Shown here piece by piece: positions 2,886-45,440 of a stretch of DNA of 64,000 nt; positions within the stretch are counted from its first letter, which is position 1; each line of letters opens with the position of its first letter. The position numbers were made by a program, and so were the translations under genes. The DNA is from Chlorobaculum parvum NCIB 8327. Lineage in GTDB: Bacteria; Bacteroidota; Chlorobiia; Chlorobiales; Chlorobiaceae. The notes under the pieces were generated by a model, which was given only the letters and a program-made list of their open reading frames with translations, was not told where the DNA came from and did no database searches. The DNA lies in contig NC_011027.1 of NCBI RefSeq assembly GCF_000020505.1, forward strand, positions 604,001 through 668,000, written 5' to 3'.

Positions 2886-3269
2886 ATGAACATCCCTGAT
2901 AATCTTCGCTATACCAAAGACCACGAATGGCTCCAGCTTCTCGATGATGGCGTGACCGCCGTGGTTGGCATCACCGATTTCGCGCAGTCTGAACTTGGCG
3001 ACATCGTGTTCGTCGAAACCAAGCCGGTCGGCACCAAGGTCGCGGCGCACGGCGCGTTTGGCACTGTTGAGGCGGTCAAGACTGTGGCCGATCTTTTCGC
3101 TCCGGTGGCGGGTGAGATCGTCGAGGTCAATGGTGCACTCGACGATGCGGCGATTGTCAACTCCGATCCCTACAACGAGGGCTGGATTGTCAAGATGAAG
3201 CTCGACAACGCTGCCGAGGTCGAGTCGCTGCTCTCACCGGCGGATTACAGCGCCCTGATCGGCGAATAA
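2886..3269 (+). CDS. gcvH: Glycine cleavage system H protein
   Basis: Lipoyl carrier of the glycine cleavage complex, shuttling the aminomethyl group between the P, T and L proteins in the cytoplasm. The 127-residue product has the usual length and fold: [31 protein letters not shown], then the lipoylation site [11 protein letters not shown] with Lys65 as the attachment residue, and the conserved [13 protein letters not shown] near the end. I use ATG at 2886; an in-frame TTG twelve bases upstream is less likely. It is followed after 28 bases by gcvPA on the same strand, so the two are probably one operon. Confidence 0.96.
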
Positions 3270-3297: not shown

Positions 3298-4632
3298 ATG
3301 CCTTTCATTGTCAATACCGATGCTGAGCGGGCCGAGATGCTTCGCGAAATCGGCGTCGAGAATTTCGAGGCGCTGATCGCTGATATTCCCGAAGAGGTTC
3401 GTCTCAAAAAGGCGCTCGATCTGCTGCCCGCAATGGGCGAGCCGGAGGTGAAAAGTCTGCTCGAAAAGATGGCGTCGAGCAACGCCGCCACTTGCGACCA
3501 CGTGAGTTTCCTCGGTGCGGGCGCTTATGACCACTTCATTCCTGCCGCTGTCAAGACCATCGCTTCAAGGAGCGAATTCTACACGGCTTACACGCCGTAC
3601 CAGGCCGAGGTATCGCAGGGCACGTTGCAGGCGATTTACGAATACCAGAGCGTGATGTGCCGCCTGTACGGCATGGACGTGGCCAACGCTTCGATGTACG
3701 ACGGCGCGAGCGCGCTGGCCGAAGCGGCTCTGATCGCCCTGAACGTCACCGGGCGCAACGGCATCGTGGTGGCTGGCAAGCTGCATCCCTACACCAGCCA
3801 GGTGCTCGAAACCTACCTCGAAGCCGCCGGAGACCGACCCATCGTGCAGAACAGCATCGAAGACGGTATTGGCAGCGTCGCGGCGCTTGAAACGCTGGTT
3901 TCTTCTGAAACCGCCGCCGTGATCGTGCAGCAGCCGAACTTCTACGGCTGCCTCGAAGAGGTCGAAGCGATTGGCGAGATCGCCAAGAAGCACGGCGCGC
4001 TCTTCATCGTCTCCGCCGATCCGGTCTCCCTCGGCGTGCTCGAAGCGCCGGGCAATTACGGCGCGGACATCGCCGTCGGCGAGGGTCAGTCGGTCGGCAA
4101 CGCCCAGAGCTTTGGCGGGCCGTACCTTGGCATTCTGACGGTCAAACAGGCGCACGTGCGCAAGATTCCGGGCCGACTGGTCGGTATGACCAAAGACAAG
4201 GATGGCAATGACGGTTTCATCCTGACGCTCCAGACCCGCGAGCAGCACATCCGCCGCGAAAAGGCCACCTCGAACATCTGCTCTAACCAGGCGCTCTGCG
4301 CGTTGCAGGCGGTAGTACACCTGTCGCTGCTCGGCAAGGAGGGAATTCAGGATGTAGCCAACCGCTCGATGCAGAAGGCGCACTACCTGGCCGACCGTAT
4401 CACGGAACTACCCGGCTTTTCGCTGAAGTTCAGCGCGCCGTTCTTCCGCGAATTTGTGGTTGAGACGCCGGTTCCGGCGGCGACGATTATCGAAAAGATG
4501 CTCGACAAAAAGGTTTTTGCCGGCGTCGATCTCTCCGCTTGGGGCGAAGATGGCCTGCTCATCGCCGTCACCGAAAAACGCACGAAGGAAGAACTCGACA
4601 GCTTCGTCAGCGAACTTGCTTCACTCGGCTGA
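3298..4632 (+). CDS. gcvPA: Glycine dehydrogenase (decarboxylating) subunit 1 (P protein, N-terminal type)
   Basis: One half of the split PLP-dependent P protein that decarboxylates glycine and passes the aminomethyl group to lipoyl-GcvH. The 444-residue length matches the GcvPA family. Family segments include [35 protein letters not shown] and [18 protein letters not shown]. The lysine that binds PLP is in the partner subunit GcvPB, which is not in this window. The gene follows gcvH directly, and a strong hairpin with a T-run ends the unit 27 bases after its stop. Confidence 0.96.
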
Positions 4633-5968: not shown

Positions 5969-6232
5969 AGAAGCGCATCCGTGTTGCGACATGGGTGCTG
6001 GTGGGTATCCAGATGGTGCACTCGGTCGAGGAGTAACTGAGGGGGTTCGACCGGTGCTTTCCGGTGTTTGTGTGGTATAACACGCACTTCGCGTCGGTGG
6101 GGGATGTTTTTCGCCTTCAACCTCTCCATCGTGGTGACGATGGCGCTGCTGTCGCTGGTGGCTTTTTCGGATTGGTGGCGTGAGCGTTTTCCTGTTTTGC
6201 TTGCCATCAAGGCAAAATCATCGCTCGACTGA
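5965..6232 (+). pseudogene. Broken HXXEE-family small membrane protein gene
   Basis: Reading from GTG at 5965 gives a protein that begins KKRIRVATWVLVGIQMVHSVEE, with the HxxEE motif that names the family. A TAA at 6034-6036 replaces the codon expected after the motif. Past it the frame continues as LRGFDRCFPVFVWYNTHFAS. Near 6099-6111 (a run of G and then T) the frame must shift by one base. The remaining frame reads FAFNLSIVVTMALLSLVAFS, then SDWWRERFPVLLAIKAKSSLD, and stops at 6230-6232. Two independent lesions make a functional product unlikely. It lies directly before the beta-lactamase insert. Confidence 0.7.
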
Positions 6233-41200: not shown

Positions 41201-41671
41201 TTCGCCGTGCTCGCCTCCAAGGCGCTCCAGTACGGAATGCCGCTCGAAGAGCTGGTGGACAGCTTCACCTTTACCCGCTTCGAGCCTGCGGGCGCGGTGC
41301 AGGGACACAACGCCATCAAGAACTCGACCTCGATTCTCGACTACGTTTTCCGCTCCATCGGCTACGACTACCTCGGACGCAAGGATTTTGTGCACGTGAA
41401 GGCGGTCGATGAGGTGCCGGAGGTGACGACGAATGGCAATGGTAATGGAAACGGCAAGGCGCACAAAGCCAAAGACTCAGAGGCGGAACTTGCTGTTCAC
41501 ACAGCCAAAGCTCACGCAGATGACAACAGCGTTTTGAGAAGCCAGGCCGCCCAGGCCAAAGTGCAAGGCTACACCGGCGAGCAGTGCGAAAATTGTGGAT
41601 CGGTACGAGTAAAGCAGAACGGCACATGCAAGGTGTGCGAGGATTGCGGAATGACGACTGGTTGTTCGTGA
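38213..41671 (+). CDS. nrdJ: Adenosylcobalamin-dependent ribonucleotide reductase (class II)
   Basis: Reduces ribonucleotides to deoxyribonucleotides, needing B12 but no oxygen, in keeping with an anaerobe. The 1,152-residue protein has the ten-stranded barrel with NPCSEY in SGRINASNPCSEYMFLDDTAC, QAHACFIQSVKDDL, TGTIGLVMDCDTTGIEPEFAIVKFKKL and YINHMAHVHMMSAVQPFISGAISKTVNMP. A C-terminal zinc-ribbon-like end reads CENCGSVRVKQNGTCKVCEDCG. The length is that of the long NrdJ form. It follows a cobalamin riboswitch, and a terminator follows it. Confidence 0.96.
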   Translation: MKIARLFTSPGENVYDRFDYTLRTSVLRNPDGSKVFEMNDVEVPVSWSQVAADILAQKYFRKTGVPQRDGEGNLMIGEDGRPVTGSENSIKQVAHRLVGCWQDWGKKHNYFDSDEDAQAFYDEVVYMLLAQMAAPNSPQWFNTGLQFAYGINGPAQGHFYVDPETGETRESEDAYSRPQAHACFIQSVKDDLVNEGGIFDLAVREARVFKFGSGSGTNYSNLRGSGEKLSGGGSSSGLMSFLKIFDSAAGAIKSGGTTRRAAKMVIIDIDHPDVEKFIEWKAKEEDKVASMVAGSKICSRFLKAIVDEALKGGTDRQENEMLNTLIKNALHRGVPMSYILRVLALVEQGYTTLDFEEYDTHYESEAYQTVGGQNSNNSVRVTNEFMKAVQNDEMWVLRERTTGKDARAVRAKDLWEKIVMSAWKCADPGLQFDSTINEWHTCPVSGRINASNPCSEYMFLDDTACNLASLNLAHFLDEESGKIKITELQHASALWTVVLEISVLMAHFPSEDIARLSYEFRTLGLGFANLGRILMVLGIPYDSPRALAIAGGIAALMTGQAYVTSADLAKDHGAFARYRENSNEMLRVIRNHRRAAHNSAEEEYEGLVVKPRGIDSEYCPKELFTAAGKVWDEALKRGKKYGFRNAQVSVIAPTGTIGLVMDCDTTGIEPEFAIVKFKKLAGGGYFKIVNQSVHKALARLGYSDTQIEEIEKYCKGHGTLRGCPGINQQWLKSRGFTDEKIEAVEKQLESVFDIRFAFNKWIIGDEFCHSLGFTEEQLNDPGFDMLSELGASDEDIEAANDYVCGTMMIEGAPHLKAEHLPVFDCASTCGRKGERYINHMAHVHMMSAVQPFISGAISKTVNMPASATTAEIGDVYEAAWQSMVKAITIYRDGSKLSQPLNISSIADLDEVVMLGTEEELDETKGPKEVQERIVERVYHRSERRMLPKRRKGYIREAYVGGHKVFLRTGEYEDGSLGEVFIDMYKEGASFKGLLNCFAVLASKALQYGMPLEELVDSFTFTRFEPAGAVQGHNAIKNSTSILDYVFRSIGYDYLGRKDFVHVKAVDEVPEVTTNGNGNGNGKAHKAKDSEAELAVHTAKAHADDNSVLRSQAAQAKVQGYTGEQCENCGSVRVKQNGTCKVCEDCGMTTGCS

Positions 41672-41693
41672 GATTGGATTGATTGACTCTGAA

Positions 41694-41722
41694 AGCGCCG
41701 GGTGCCAGCCCGGCGCTTTTTT
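41694..41722 (+). terminator. Rho-independent terminator after nrdJ
   Basis: AGCGCCGGG (41694-41702), loop TGCCAG, CCCGGCGCT (41709-41717), then a run of T to 41722. Confidence 0.9.
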
Positions 41723-41901
41723 GGGGGGATTTGATTGTTGGATATACGTTTCGAGTACAAGGGCATCCCTGCGTTGTGCTTAAATTGGTTATAATAGTTT
41801 GAGTGAGATCAGTTTATTGCATGATTTCATCAGTCCTACTGATGTTTAATGAAATATGTGTGAAACGTATAATGCGAGAAATGTTTTAACTTATAAATAT
41901 T

Positions 41902-42189
41902 ATGAAAATGAACATGGATAAATATAATAGAGAGGTCAGCTTGCTATGTCCTACGTGTGGCTGTACGGATTTTTCTTATCGAGAAGGTGTGGAGGAAAGT
42001 ATTGAGATGATGATGTGTGCTTCATGTAATAGAATATTTACAAAGGATGAACTAATCAGGGAAAATGGCGAGAATATTGATGAGCATTTGTCTGAGATAA
42101 AGAAAGAACTTACTGAGGATATTGTTGATGAATTCAGTAGGTCTTTAAAAAAAGCATTTAGTGGTAGTAAATATATAAGGATTAAATAA
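41902..42189 (+). CDS. Zinc-ribbon protein of an AT-rich two-gene module
   Basis: 95 residues. Two Cys pairs (Cys16/Cys19 in LLCPTCGCTDFSY, Cys39/Cys42 in MMMCASCNRIFTKDEL) form a zinc ribbon. The rest is an acidic then basic helical tail (ENIDEHLSEIKKELTEDIVDEF, SLKKAFSGSKYIRIK). Its base composition is far more AT-rich than the chromosome around it. Its stop overlaps the start of the next gene (TAATG), so both products are probably made together. No signal peptide. Function unknown; small zinc ribbons often bind nucleic acid or another protein. Confidence 0.75.
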   Translation: MKMNMDKYNREVSLLCPTCGCTDFSYREGVEESIEMMMCASCNRIFTKDELIRENGENIDEHLSEIKKELTEDIVDEFSRSLKKAFSGSKYIRIK

Positions 42190-42662
42190 TGGCGTTCTCT
42201 GCAGATGTTGGCGATGTAATTGCTGGATTAGCATTGCTTTTGTCTGGTTATGCTACTTGGCAAAGTATAATGTTTAATAAGAAACAAAAATCTCTTTTAG
42301 AAAGTCAGGAGAAGCTTAATCAGCGTCTTCTTGAAAAAGAGGATGCTGATTCGGCTGCTGAGAGAAAAGCTGACCTGGGCGCTACTATTATTAAAATTGG
42401 TAGTAATAACTATCGCTTAAAAATATGGAATAAGGGTAAGGCTACAGCGAAAAATGTCTTGATAGACTTTCCGGAAGGTAATGATTGTTTTATGGAGTCT
42501 GATATTATTAGGAAGTTTCCATTGGAAAGGCTTGATACTTACCAGTCAGTAGAAATTATGGCGGCTGTTAGTATGGATACAAAAGGTAAGCATATGATAA
42601 GGCTTCGTTGGGATGATGATTTTAAAGGTATGAATGAGAAAATTGTATATCCAACGTTATAA
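42189..42662 (+). CDS. Membrane-anchored partner of the zinc-ribbon protein
   Basis: 157 residues: an N-terminal membrane helix (about 8-28, VIAGLALLLSGYATWQSI), a charged coiled-coil stretch (about 30-62, NKKQKSLLESQEKLNQRLLEKEDAD), and a beta-rich C-terminal domain (IIKIGSNNYRLKIWNKGKATAKNVLIDFP..., HMIRLRWDDDF). That part resembles an Ig-like or sensor fold, with strand patterns only. Start ATG overlaps the stop of the zinc-ribbon gene. AT-rich like its partner, so the pair was probably acquired together. The cellular role is not known. Confidence 0.75.
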   Translation: MAFSADVGDVIAGLALLLSGYATWQSIMFNKKQKSLLESQEKLNQRLLEKEDADSAAERKADLGATIIKIGSNNYRLKIWNKGKATAKNVLIDFPEGNDCFMESDIIRKFPLERLDTYQSVEIMAAVSMDTKGKHMIRLRWDDDFKGMNEKIVYPTL

Positions 42663-42771
42663 ATAACGCCCAATTACTATGGGTGATGGTTCCGTTGCTG
42701 AAAATTCTACCGTTGAGCCTTCGGCTCAATGTGCCAAGCTGGAGCATGGTGTTCCCAAGAAAACTCACAAT

Positions 42772-42921
42772 CTATCGCTGAACGACAGATTCCTGGTTTT
42801 GTTCTTTCTGCAGGAGTTTTTCGTAGAGAGATTCGGGAGCGATATCCGCTCCGTTTCGGCTTCAGCTCAATATGCCATTCCGACCTGTCTGGATTTCCCC
42901 GTCAAAGAATTTTCCGCCCAT
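42772..42921 (-). pseudogene. Possible remnant after mqsA
   Basis: An ATG overlapping the mqsA stop opens MGGKFFDGEIQTGRNGILS, then a TGA, then the same frame continues SRNGADIAPESLYEKLLQKEQNQESVVQR to a TAG at 42772-42774. The residues look protein-like but the frame is broken. It might be decayed DNA of the toxin-antitoxin neighbourhood. Weak evidence. Confidence 0.2.
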
Positions 42922-43331
42922 CACATCTTCTCAATCTCCGCTAGCAAATCCGGATGCCGGTCGATGAGTTTCAGCAACTTGAGCAGTGGTGCGGGAGGTT
43001 TGGTTTCTCCACGCTCGTAACGTGAAAACGCGACCTTGCCGACGCCGAACGATATGGCGAGTTGCGCCTGTGTCAGTTTCAGTTTTCTGCGGATTCGCCG
43101 GATGTCTGCTGCCGGGTCGCCTTTGATTGCTCGTACCAGCCCCTCCTGAGCCTCTGTGTAGCGCCGGTAACTCTCTTCATCCCAAATCCCTTCGCCACAC
43201 TCCGGGCAGAACTGGCCGTGCATATCATGCAGCGTCATCGATTTACCGCCATACGTGAGCGTTTCCTCCAAAACCTTGTCGATCATACCGCTGTGACCGC
43301 ATGAGGGACATTTCTTCGTATTCATAATCAC
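42921..43331 (-). CDS. mqsA: MqsA-type antitoxin / transcription regulator (zinc finger plus HTH)
   Basis: 136 residues. The N-terminal zinc-binding half has Cys8/Cys11 (KKCPSCGHSG) and Cys42/Cys45 (QFCPECGEG), as in the YgiT-type finger that neutralises MqsR. The C-terminal half is an XRE helix-turn-helix (LKLTQAQLAISFGVGKVAFSRYERGETKPPAPLLKLLKLI, about 84-124) for operator binding. It is the second gene of the mqsR-mqsA operon, 13 bases after the toxin, which is the known order for this system. It likely represses its own promoter. Confidence 0.9.
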   Translation of the reverse strand: MIMNTKKCPSCGHSGMIDKVLEETLTYGGKSMTLHDMHGQFCPECGEGIWDEESYRRYTEAQEGLVRAIKGDPAADIRRIRRKLKLTQAQLAISFGVGKVAFSRYERGETKPPAPLLKLLKLIDRHPDLLAEIEKM

Positions 43332-43344
43332 CTTTGTTTCAATT

Positions 43345-43653
43345 TCATTTGGCCTTGAACTGGATCACCGGCGGGCGGTCATCGTCAAAGCCGGTTATTT
43401 TGATATAAACCGGAACTCCATCGGGTGTCATTCCGTGATATACATCCTGCCAAAGCTGATGGTCTCGATGAGTTGTCATCGACTTGTAAAAGTCGACTCT
43501 CCGGAGCGCAAGCACAACTTCTCGCATAACGGGCTCCGTCAATCCCAATGCCAAACCACCTCTCAACGCCGTCATCGTAAATGGCCGTGAATTTCTGTCA
43601 GCGACTATTCCTTGAACCTTCTCAAGTTGATAATGAGGTTTTCTTTTCTCCAT
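43345..43653 (-). CDS. mqsR: MqsR-type mRNA interferase toxin
   Basis: 102 residues of the RelE-like MqsR family, a ribonuclease that cuts mRNA at GCU-type sites in the E. coli example. The signature DFYKSMTTHRDHQLWQDVYHG is almost the same as in E. coli MqsR, and the start MEKRKPHYQLEKV fits the family. I use ATG at 43651-43653. The frame extends to 43899, but that part comes from the duplicated segment and is not MqsR. It lies immediately before mqsA. Confidence 0.92.
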   Translation of the reverse strand: MEKRKPHYQLEKVQGIVADRNSRPFTMTALRGGLALGLTEPVMREVVLALRRVDFYKSMTTHRDHQLWQDVYHGMTPDGVPVYIKITGFDDDRPPVIQFKAK

Positions 43654-43686
43654 GAACCAGGGGTTTGTTCTTGGAGATACTGTAAT

Positions 43687-43711
43687 CAATTTGATAAAAA
43701 TATCCAAATTG
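43687..43711. promoter_or_regulatory. Inverted repeat upstream of mqsR, candidate operator
   Basis: CAATTTG (43687-43693) and CAAATTG (43705-43711), 11 AT-rich bases apart, lie 34 bases before the mqsR start. A self-regulating antitoxin such as MqsA is expected to bind an inverted repeat here; the sequence is not the AACCT...AGGTT known from E. coli. Confidence 0.45.
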
Positions 43712-43779
43712 ATGTAAGGTGAGCTGCGCAGCCGAGCCGAATCGTTTTGAGCTTGCAGGGTACTATTTGTTTCCACTCC

Positions 43780-43992
43780 CTTGATTCTCACCCCGGATAT
43801 TCTGAACTTTGAATAAACTACTGAACCGCAGCTCGGCTTTTGTGGCGGAGTTGCCGGTTCCTGCATTTTTGAAGTCTTGATGTTCATGGTGTTCAACACA
43901 CAACTAGAAAGGGGGGCATGTCCAGATTTTATTTCAATCTTGATTTCTGCCGTGCTGGCCCTCTGTCTTTAGACCGTTCGTGCAGAAGTGGA
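43780..43992 (+). pseudogene. Decayed duplicate: 3' end of UPF0158 gene plus 5' end of cache-protein gene
   Basis: This 210-base stretch matches 44495-44705 closely: both contain CCCCGGATATTCTGAACTTTGAA, the same spacer with TTGATGTTCATGGTGTTCAACAC, and ATGTCCAGATTT as the start of the cache-protein gene. In this copy an extra T after ATGTCCAGATTT shifts the frame, and the product quickly loses similarity. No complete gene is left. It lies between mqsR and the intact UPF0158 gene. Confidence 0.8.
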
Positions 43993-44065
43993 GACGGAAA
44001 CCTCTCGATGAAGCCCTCGATTCGTCAGCTTGGTAGCATCGCTTAAAGACACCAATTATTCTACA

Positions 44066-44527
44066 ATGGGAACGAACATGACTCCGATCATTCGGCTAAA
44101 AGATGTCATCGAGGGAATACATGCAATCGACGATGAGGTCAGGGGTTTTTTGAATGTTCGGACAGGTCGGGTCGTGATGCTGTCGGTTGACGACCTGGAC
44201 GCGGCGGCGAATGGCTCCCCTGAGAATGCGATGGCGCAAGAGGTGCTGCGTTCAAGCGATTACCGCGAGTTGCCGGATCAGTTCGAAGTCGATGACTATT
44301 CGATCATGCAGCAGTTTTGCGAGACGGTTGACGACGACCCGCTGCGGCGTGGTCTGCTGCGGAGCATGCAGGGGCGGGGCGCGTCGATGCGCATCAGGCA
44401 TACGGTGCATGAATACGGCGTCGAAGAGGCGTGGTCGGCGTTTCGTAAAGAGGCGTTGCGGCCCATTGCTATCGAGTGGCTTGAAAAGCACGAGCTTGAT
44501 TCTTACCCCGGATATTCTGAACTTTGA
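44066..44527 (+). CDS. UPF0158 family protein
   Basis: 153 residues with the UPF0158 pattern: LKDVIEGIHAIDDEVRGFLNVRTGRVVMLSVDDLDAA, LPDQFEVDDYSIMQQFCETVDDDPLRRGLLRSMQGRGASMRIRHTVHEYGVEEAWSAFRKEALRPIAIEWLE. The function of this family is unknown. Starts at 44066 (MGTNMTPII) or 44078 (MTPII) are both possible, and neither has a strong ribosome site. Its last 11 codons are part of the duplicated segment. No signal or membrane segment. Confidence 0.8.
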   Translation: MGTNMTPIIRLKDVIEGIHAIDDEVRGFLNVRTGRVVMLSVDDLDAAANGSPENAMAQEVLRSSDYRELPDQFEVDDYSIMQQFCETVDDDPLRRGLLRSMQGRGASMRIRHTVHEYGVEEAWSAFRKEALRPIAIEWLEKHELDSYPGYSEL

Positions 44528-44705
44528 AGAAACCACTGAGCAGCAGCTCGGCTTGTGTGGCGGAGTTGCCGGTTTCTGCTTTTTCGATGTTTTGATGTTC
44601 ATGGTGTTCAACACACAACCAGAAAGGGGGTTTCGCATGTCCAGATTTATTTCAATCCTGATGTCTGCCGTGCTGGCGCTGTGTTTGCTGACGGTTCGCG
44701 CCGAG
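44495..44705 (+). repeat. Intact copy of the duplicated segment
   Basis: The matching unit of 43780-43992, starting at CTTGATTCT inside the 3' end of the UPF0158 gene and ending in the signal-peptide coding part of the cache-protein gene. The spacing of the copies is 715 bases, about the length of one UPF0158 unit. Confidence 0.8.
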
Positions 44706-45440
44706 GCGAAAACCGAGCCGGTTCCGGTCAAGCTTGAGCCGGAGGTTGCTCTTGGTGCTTACATGGGACTGCTCGAAGAGCATCTGGGAGGCATTCTGCG
44801 AACCGAAAAGGTCGTTGCCGAGAGCATCGAGGCGATGTCGGGCAGGTGGGACATGGTTTGGCCGCTGCTTGCACGTTTCAGCCAGGATCTGCCGACCGAT
44901 GCTGCGGTGTGGTACATGATGCCCGACGGTCGTTACTTCTCCACCGCAAAAGGTGGACTGACCGATCAGAATCTCAGTGACCGCGCCTATTTCCCGACAC
45001 TCAAGGCCGGCAAGGAGGTACTCGGTGAGCTGGTAATCAGCAAATCGATCGGCCAGCGCTCGATCATCGTTGCTACGCCGGTGTTCTCTGCTGAAGGCAA
45101 GCTCGTCGCGGCGATTGGCGTTTCGGTCGATGCGGTCAAGCTTGCCGAGCTTGTCGAATCCCGCATGACTCTGCCGGACAACACCTACTTCTATGCGCTC
45201 GATGCCAACACCAAAGTCACGTTGCACCGCTATCAGGCGCGGCTGTTCAAAACGGTTTCCGAAGTCGGTAATGACGAAAGCCTCGGCGATGATTTCAAGA
45301 AGGTGATGGGCAAGGAGCAGGGGGTTTTCGACTATTCACTCAACGGCAAGAACATGACCTCGATTTTCCGGAAATCTCCGGTTCTCGGCTGGTACTTCTT
45401 CATCGCCCAAGAGGCCCAAGAGGCCCAAGAGGTCAAGTAA
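44637..45440 (+). CDS. Secreted single-cache-domain protein
   Basis: 267 residues. Signal peptide MSRFISILMSAVLALCLLTVRAEA, then a cache-type sensor domain (AAVWYMMPDGRYFSTAKGGLTDQNLSDRAYFPTLKAGKEVLGELVISKSIGQRSIIVATPVFSAEGKLVAAIGVSVDAVKLAELV), with a second half that reads like the membrane-proximal cache subdomain. Unlike chemoreceptors or kinases it has no second membrane helix and no cytoplasmic output domain. It may be a periplasmic ligand-binding protein. It ends in a 9-base repeat, GAGGCCCAA three times (AQEAQEAQEVK). The stop overlaps nearly with the deaminase start (2 bases). Confidence 0.8.
   Translation: MSRFISILMSAVLALCLLTVRAEAKTEPVPVKLEPEVALGAYMGLLEEHLGGILRTEKVVAESIEAMSGRWDMVWPLLARFSQDLPTDAAVWYMMPDGRYFSTAKGGLTDQNLSDRAYFPTLKAGKEVLGELVISKSIGQRSIIVATPVFSAEGKLVAAIGVSVDAVKLAELVESRMTLPDNTYFYALDANTKVTLHRYQARLFKTVSEVGNDESLGDDFKKVMGKEQGVFDYSLNGKNMTSIFRKSPVLGWYFFIAQEAQEAQEVK

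Follow-up and report, generated by a model that had tools for sequence, protein, structure and literature searches.

Between nrdJ and an MqsA–MqsR toxin–antitoxin pair in Chlorobaculum parvum lie two small, overlapping genes, here called A and B, within the 64,000-nucleotide stretch of DNA that we analysed (the window). They raise the question of whether two such genes form a functional unit and, if so, what that unit might do. A sequence-only reading had proposed that they are an undescribed system in a mobile island, with a possible role in defence, stress or conflict. The features of the locus are as follows.

41692–41722, plus strand: GC-rich hairpin followed by a T run, 3′ of nrdJ (direct sequence reading)
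41902–42189, plus strand: gene A, encoding a 95-residue soluble zinc-ribbon protein (open reading frame, NF047912 and a 35-member alignment)
42187–42191, plus strand: TAATG stop/start overlap of A and B (sequence; junction identical or nearly so in most homologues)
42189–42662, plus strand: gene B, encoding a 157-residue membrane-anchored protein (open reading frame, phrog_6723)
42691–42855, no strand assigned: genus-specific repeat 3′ of B; in sister genomes, copies of it lie between the cargo genes of this slot
42921–43899, minus strand: MqsA–MqsR toxin–antitoxin pair (MqsA 42921–43331, MqsR 43345–43899)

The layout agrees with the sequence-only reading: nrdJ ends at 41671, MqsA occupies 42921–43331 on the minus strand, and the two open reading frames between them overlap by one base, as TAATG. 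They are also, as it had stated, far more AT-rich than their surroundings, with GC contents of 33.0% for A and 36.3% for B versus 60.7% for nrdJ and 56.8% for the window, whose lowest-GC 760-bp bin (34.3%, approximately 4.4 standard deviations under the mean) starts at 41801. We judge both frames to be genuinely coding because they have homologues across phyla, with dN of 0.01–0.27 and dS high or saturated. Gene B is single-copy on its 2,289,249-bp contig, of which the window is positions 604001–668000. The hairpin at 41692–41722 is a probable terminator separating nrdJ from A, and was not flagged by a consensus terminator scan. No Rfam family was found in the A–B region, the one match there lying far under its gathering score. 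MqsA–MqsR, which is convergent with A–B, is a separate module outside it.

The pair had also been described as adjoining a duplication. A duplication exists (136 nt, 91%). It is found 1.1 kb from the pair, on the MqsR side, instead of flanking it, and we rejected it as part of an A–B module. The copies of this direct repeat are at 43780–43915 and 44495–44630, and those of a second direct repeat (71 nt, 77%) are at 43928–43998 and 44646–44716. What is partly duplicated is the 5′ portion of a cache-type gene at 44.6 kb together with its upstream region; the duplicate copy adjoins MqsR, across a 44.0–44.5-kb open reading frame from the cache-type gene.

The site of the pair is shared by other genes in the genus. 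In sister genomes, the interval downstream of nrdJ contains different cargo, often toxin–antitoxin-like, split by copies of a genus-restricted repeat. This repeat has a conserved core of approximately 80 bp and occurs in up to three copies between nrdJ and a conserved downstream gene (3049–3164, 4024–4161 and 5993–6144 in locus L112; also in L113, L114 and L121). Folding of the downstream repeat was only slightly better than that of shuffled sequences (z of −1.8 and −1.4). The cargo comprised RelE-like, MNT/HEPN-like, GNAT/DUF1778-like and MqsRA modules, labelled partly by eye. These comparisons suggest that the slot is a repeat-bounded cargo array. Because different cargo, separated by a shared repeat, is found there in sister genomes, A–B appears to occupy a habitual cargo slot and not a one-off island. 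We would refine the proposed mobile island accordingly: within the genus, the site is a slot for variable cargo 3′ of nrdJ.

Protein A has three parts.

41947–42027, plus strand: four ribbon cysteines, C16, C19, C39 and C42 (codons at 41947, 41956, 42016 and 42025)
42067–42162, plus strand: predicted long helix, residues 56–87 (AlphaFold2; block pLDDT of 84–88 to residue 80)
42157–42186, plus strand: basic, strand-like, conserved C-terminal tail (FSGSKYIRIK here, usually F.G.KNIRIK)

The four cysteines are invariant in 35 of 35 aligned homologues, and the AlphaFold2 model of A consists of a ribbon and one long helix with moderate confidence (pLDDT 79), in support of the earlier description of a CxxC...CxxC zinc ribbon with a helical tail. 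The C-terminal tail, modelled with low confidence (pLDDT 55), ends in K or R in all but one of the 35 homologues, mostly within KNIRIK. Although the start of A is annotated at 41902, most homologues in the 35-member alignment begin at the match of the second ATG, at approximately 41908, and translation may start near there. Protein A passes the NCBIfam model NF047912 (ECs_2282 family) with 73.7 bits against a cut-off of 37, and has the four-cysteine ribbon in common with that family. Unlike A, ECs_2282 itself is a 66-residue solo ribbon without the long helix or a KNIRIK-type tail; it is encoded in the lambda-like prophage Sp12 and has no B partner, whereas A has B as a regular neighbour. Protein A thus departs from the solo short ribbon of the founder of NF047912. 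Because ECs_2282 lacks the helix, the tail and B, we infer that the C-terminal half of A may serve its partnership with B. A Pfam match of A to NMD3 (25.6 versus a cut-off of 24.9) was rejected as a ribbon-level chance match. A PDB sequence search with A returned generic ribbons only, and no helix–turn–helix was found in A.

Protein B is predicted to contain two parts.

42207–42362, plus strand: single continuous helix, residues 7–58, a membrane segment and then a coiled coil (AlphaFold2)
42372–42659, plus strand: immunoglobulin-like beta-sandwich, residues 62–157 (AlphaFold2, alignment and fold search)

This AlphaFold2 model (mean pLDDT 91) matches the sequence-only account of one membrane helix, a coiled coil and a beta domain; the domains of A–B are assigned by prediction. 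The helix is flanked by acidic or neutral residues on its N side and basic residues on its C side. In 34 of 35 homologues the C flank carries the more positive charge of the two, so the beta-sandwich is probably cytoplasmic, behind one N-out/C-in helix. Its conserved motifs, NxGxxxA (residues 81–87), KFP (109–111) and WxD (141–143), look structural or binding. No catalytic residue set is evident among the conserved positions of B, in line with the earlier observation that none was visible, and neither a catalytic site nor a nucleic-acid-binding surface was identified in A–B. Protein B matches phrog_6723 across its full length (2.6e-44), and RefSeq labels an E. coli homologue (47% identical) as DUF8453. 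Searches of Pfam, NCBIfam and PADLOC returned no match to B, with the Pfam copy searched possibly predating the DUF8453 model, and a PDB sequence search returned no informative relative. At the level of fold, the model weakly matched uncharacterised phage proteins, and its beta domain resembled Ig-like appendage domains (GGA GAE, AP-2 alpha ear and TRAP; E of approximately 0.006–0.01, TM of 0.3–0.4), which have a very common fold and no sequence similarity to B. Several Ig-like appendage domains bind short peptides.

Several lines of evidence link A and B to each other. Scanning with a B alignment matched 48 genome loci; an alignment was needed, as B searched as a single sequence against viral and genome collections returned nothing. 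Gene A was directly upstream of B in 46 of these 48 loci, the two others being a B pseudogene and a B fragment, which answers the earlier question of whether homologues pair. The identity matrices of A and B correlate (r = 0.61, with none of 2,000 permutations as high), and both genes are under purifying selection, with dN well below dS. A match to a housekeeping family, which the sequence-only reading had said would speak against it, was found for neither protein. An in-frame A–B fusion in Acinetobacter (L010) was set aside as evidence because its junction is one base off the normal overlap, a possible indel.

The pair is carried by many kinds of element. We found it in the SXT/R391-type element R997, between restriction genes and the relaxase gene; in F-type plasmids, adjoining an ISNCY transposase; in the accessory slot of integrated filamentous phages; beside the integrase of a prophage (L031); in small Acinetobacter plasmids; in the metal-resistance plasmid pMOL30; and as a stand-alone chromosomal copy. 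The R997 site is hotspot 5, which in SXT/R391 elements lies between s026 and traI (PMC2791158) and in R997 has been described as a type I restriction region (PMC5561048). INPHARED phages contained no match to A or B. Within genera the distribution is extremely patchy: B was found in 1 of 148 genomes of the window's own phylum, that of the window itself, and the pair in 3 of 369 gammaproteobacteria, including a centre genome picked for having it, with one of the three copies containing an internal stop. On these sequence comparisons, A–B behaves as a self-contained, horizontally moving two-gene module.

Two further arrangements were seen among these carriers. In an E. coli plasmid (L024, 5372–9732), ISNCY transposase copies lie on both sides of A, B and a third gene, C; the downstream copy is frameshifted, and the arrangement resembles a composite transposon. 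A gene for an SOS-response-associated peptidase (HMCES/YedK-like) adjoins the pair in Cupriavidus plasmids and Serratia (L014 5780–9671, L008 711–1397 and L004 6942–7139), and L014 also contains an error-prone polymerase gene.

Carriage by conjugative plasmids, integrative and conjugative elements and prophages fits a counter-defence, anti-restriction-like module that shields the DNA of mobile elements, and the ribbon of A weakly resembles Lar restriction-alleviation proteins (E of approximately 0.002–0.02). However, this similarity is below cut-off and common to many ribbons, a membrane anchor would be unusual in an anti-restriction system, and the pair is also found as an integron cassette and as a stand-alone chromosomal pair. 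We regard counter-defence as decidedly unlikely.

In filamentous prophages, the accessory slot lies downstream of a gene for a 140-residue membrane protein, and its occupants differ between tandem prophages and between strains: they include A–B, B with gene C, other hypothetical sets and a gene of the STM4504/CBY_0614 family. Side by side, these loci (L026, L027, L028, L032, L034–L036 and L122–L125) show at least five different occupants downstream of the 140-residue gene (phrog_4174). The E. coli filamentous prophages with this swappable slot sit near hipBA, and 127 of 5,426 complete E. coli genomes match, in whole or in part, a query of the 140-residue gene plus A–B. Gene C (123 residues, phrog_22661) is found 3′ of B in the E. 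coli/Klebsiella branch (L012 2524–2895, L026 9530–9901) and is under purifying selection.

A slot whose contents vary among tandem prophages and strains, together with the membrane location of B, fits a factor for superinfection exclusion or plasmid entry exclusion that serves its carrier without general defence. Yet the same pair is found in unrelated carriers and in integrons, which need no entry exclusion, and this explanation seems quite unlikely to us. The repeated placement in phage accessory slots also speaks against another proposal, that the pair is a host-helping stress, metal or envelope accessory such as a membrane-tethered zinc sensor or chaperone. A zinc ribbon joined to a membrane Ig-like domain, a broad taxonomic spread and carriage on pMOL30 are consistent with such a role, but the patchiness within genera and the varied neighbours, with no metal or envelope theme, are not. 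We consider a host accessory unlikely.

The pair also travels as an integron cassette. Cassette-end inverted repeats were found in 11 of 59 distinct flank pairs, versus 1.3% expected, and about a dozen loci carry integron gene cassette ends. Repeats of the attC type bound exactly A plus B in L003 and L066, and attC-type ends surround the genes in these loci and in L050, L052, L037, L069, L070 and others. For the copy in the window, a cassette origin was tested and is unsupported, as no cassette-end inverted repeat was found within the window.

Two-gene integron cassettes are often toxin–antitoxin pairs. A stability or addiction module, in which one protein does harm unless neutralised by the other, would explain why there are two genes per cassette and why plasmids retain them. 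Carriage in cassettes and plasmids and the neighbouring toxin–antitoxin pairs in the window's slot fit this explanation, as does the architecture of two small genes, which, as in type II toxin–antitoxin pairs, overlap in most homologues. The broken copies point the other way. In one filamentous lineage (L026, L032), A is reduced to its last codons and B is intact and constrained by purifying selection; conversely, A is intact where B has a nonsense or frameshift mutation (L003 and pAPEC-O2-ColV, L002). These copies rest on single records, in which sequencing errors are possible. Because B stays intact without A, and A stays intact with a broken B, neither gene looks toxic on its own, which argues against a classical toxin–antitoxin pair, in which the toxin is not kept without its antitoxin. 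In addition, no toxin or DNA-binding antitoxin family scored above threshold for A or B in Pfam, NCBIfam or the PDB, neither has a known toxin or antitoxin fold, and A lacks a helix–turn–helix. Addiction therefore seems an improbable function to us. In those filamentous prophages that have kept B but not A, B may work alone or with gene C.

Some of the pair's neighbours are defence genes. Within three genes of the pair, 110 proteins matched 178 PADLOC models at E ≤ 1e-10, compared with 11 models for 104 control proteins; this comparison counts models, not proteins, against a small control set, and, since dozens of models can be matched by a single ATPase, it overstates the enrichment. Individual loci are solid cases: L013 has a CBASS cyclase (1e-148) with its 4TM effector (6e-152) and a ThsB-like TIR; L051 has GajA (3e-177) and two ThsB-like TIRs; L080 has an OLD-type nuclease (8e-87); and L040 has a restriction-type gene. 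Many other copies adjoin housekeeping genes or sit in integrons and have no defence neighbour. The sequence-only reading had asked whether the contexts are enriched for mobile or defence genes; they are mobile and, in several loci but not in many others, rich in defence genes, and a defence, stress or conflict role for A–B remains one of guilt by association.

Known defence systems offered partial comparisons. Homologues of A have weak, ribbon-level matches to PADLOC PDC-M14A, HEC-08 and PDC-S64 (best 1e-6, 2e-5 and 4e-7, respectively); these scores are marginal, and the models of these systems do not cover A–B. The B of the window has no counterpart in PADLOC, with one marginal match among 35 B homologues, and no system in PADLOC-DB 2.0 was matched by both components, A being marginal and B absent. 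Another comparison is with Vibrio integron cassettes. A review reports anti-phage activity on expression for at least 16 of 179 V. cholerae integron cassettes (PMC12409362). Like A–B, the Vibrio anti-phage cassettes (Darracq et al. 2025 and Getz et al. 2025, as cited in PMC12409362 and PMC12753305) are small and self-contained, and many Vibrio cassettes are of unknown function, some proving anti-phage on expression. In the literature covered, we found no statement that A–B was among the cassettes tested. Unlike those cassettes, the pair occurs outside integrons too.

Considering these data together, we propose, at somewhat less than even confidence, that A–B is a small, membrane-tethered, enzyme-free conflict module, probably anti-phage or exclusion in function, in which B is a scaffold and A a sensor or adaptor. 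Most likely, A and B would assemble with each other at the cytoplasmic membrane, on its inner face. The single helix of B would serve as the anchor, with the coiled coil holding the Ig-like domain in the cytoplasm, and A would be cytosolic, its helix and basic tail docking on B, possibly as an added beta-strand. When a phage or mobile element enters, the ribbon of A might recognise one of its nucleic acids or proteins; the target would then be held at the membrane, or B activated there, so that establishment is blocked. The sequences show the pairing, the coupling, the predicted domains, the spread as a unit and the mobile, cassette and partly defence-rich contexts; that the proteins form a complex, that the tail docks, that A senses a target and that the module acts against phages or in exclusion is what we infer. 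More tentatively, A–B may be an undescribed, cassette-sized immune or exclusion system in which a zinc-ribbon sensor acts through a membrane-tethered Ig-like scaffold with no enzyme, and which is found alike in integrons, in conjugative elements and in prophages of filamentous and tailed phages.

As far as searched, what is new here is the coupled A–B system. The families NF047912, DUF8453 and phrog_6723 already have names, so the description of the pair as undescribed stands for the coupling, on the literature and PADLOC, and not for the individual families. DUF8453 and phrog_6723 are labels of unknown function, and neither records the coupling of B to A. In the literature covered, which excludes most subscription journals, we found ECs_2282, DUF8453, PDC-M14 and the protein accessions named in no paper. 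If A–B does act in conflict, it would do so without an enzyme and at a very small size (approximately 760 bp) that suits both an integron cassette and a filamentous phage, and two families that are so far labels only, found on clinical plasmids and integrative and conjugative elements, would gain a function. If it does not, the pair would still be a clean case of two tightly coupled genes that have spread across five or more kinds of mobile element.
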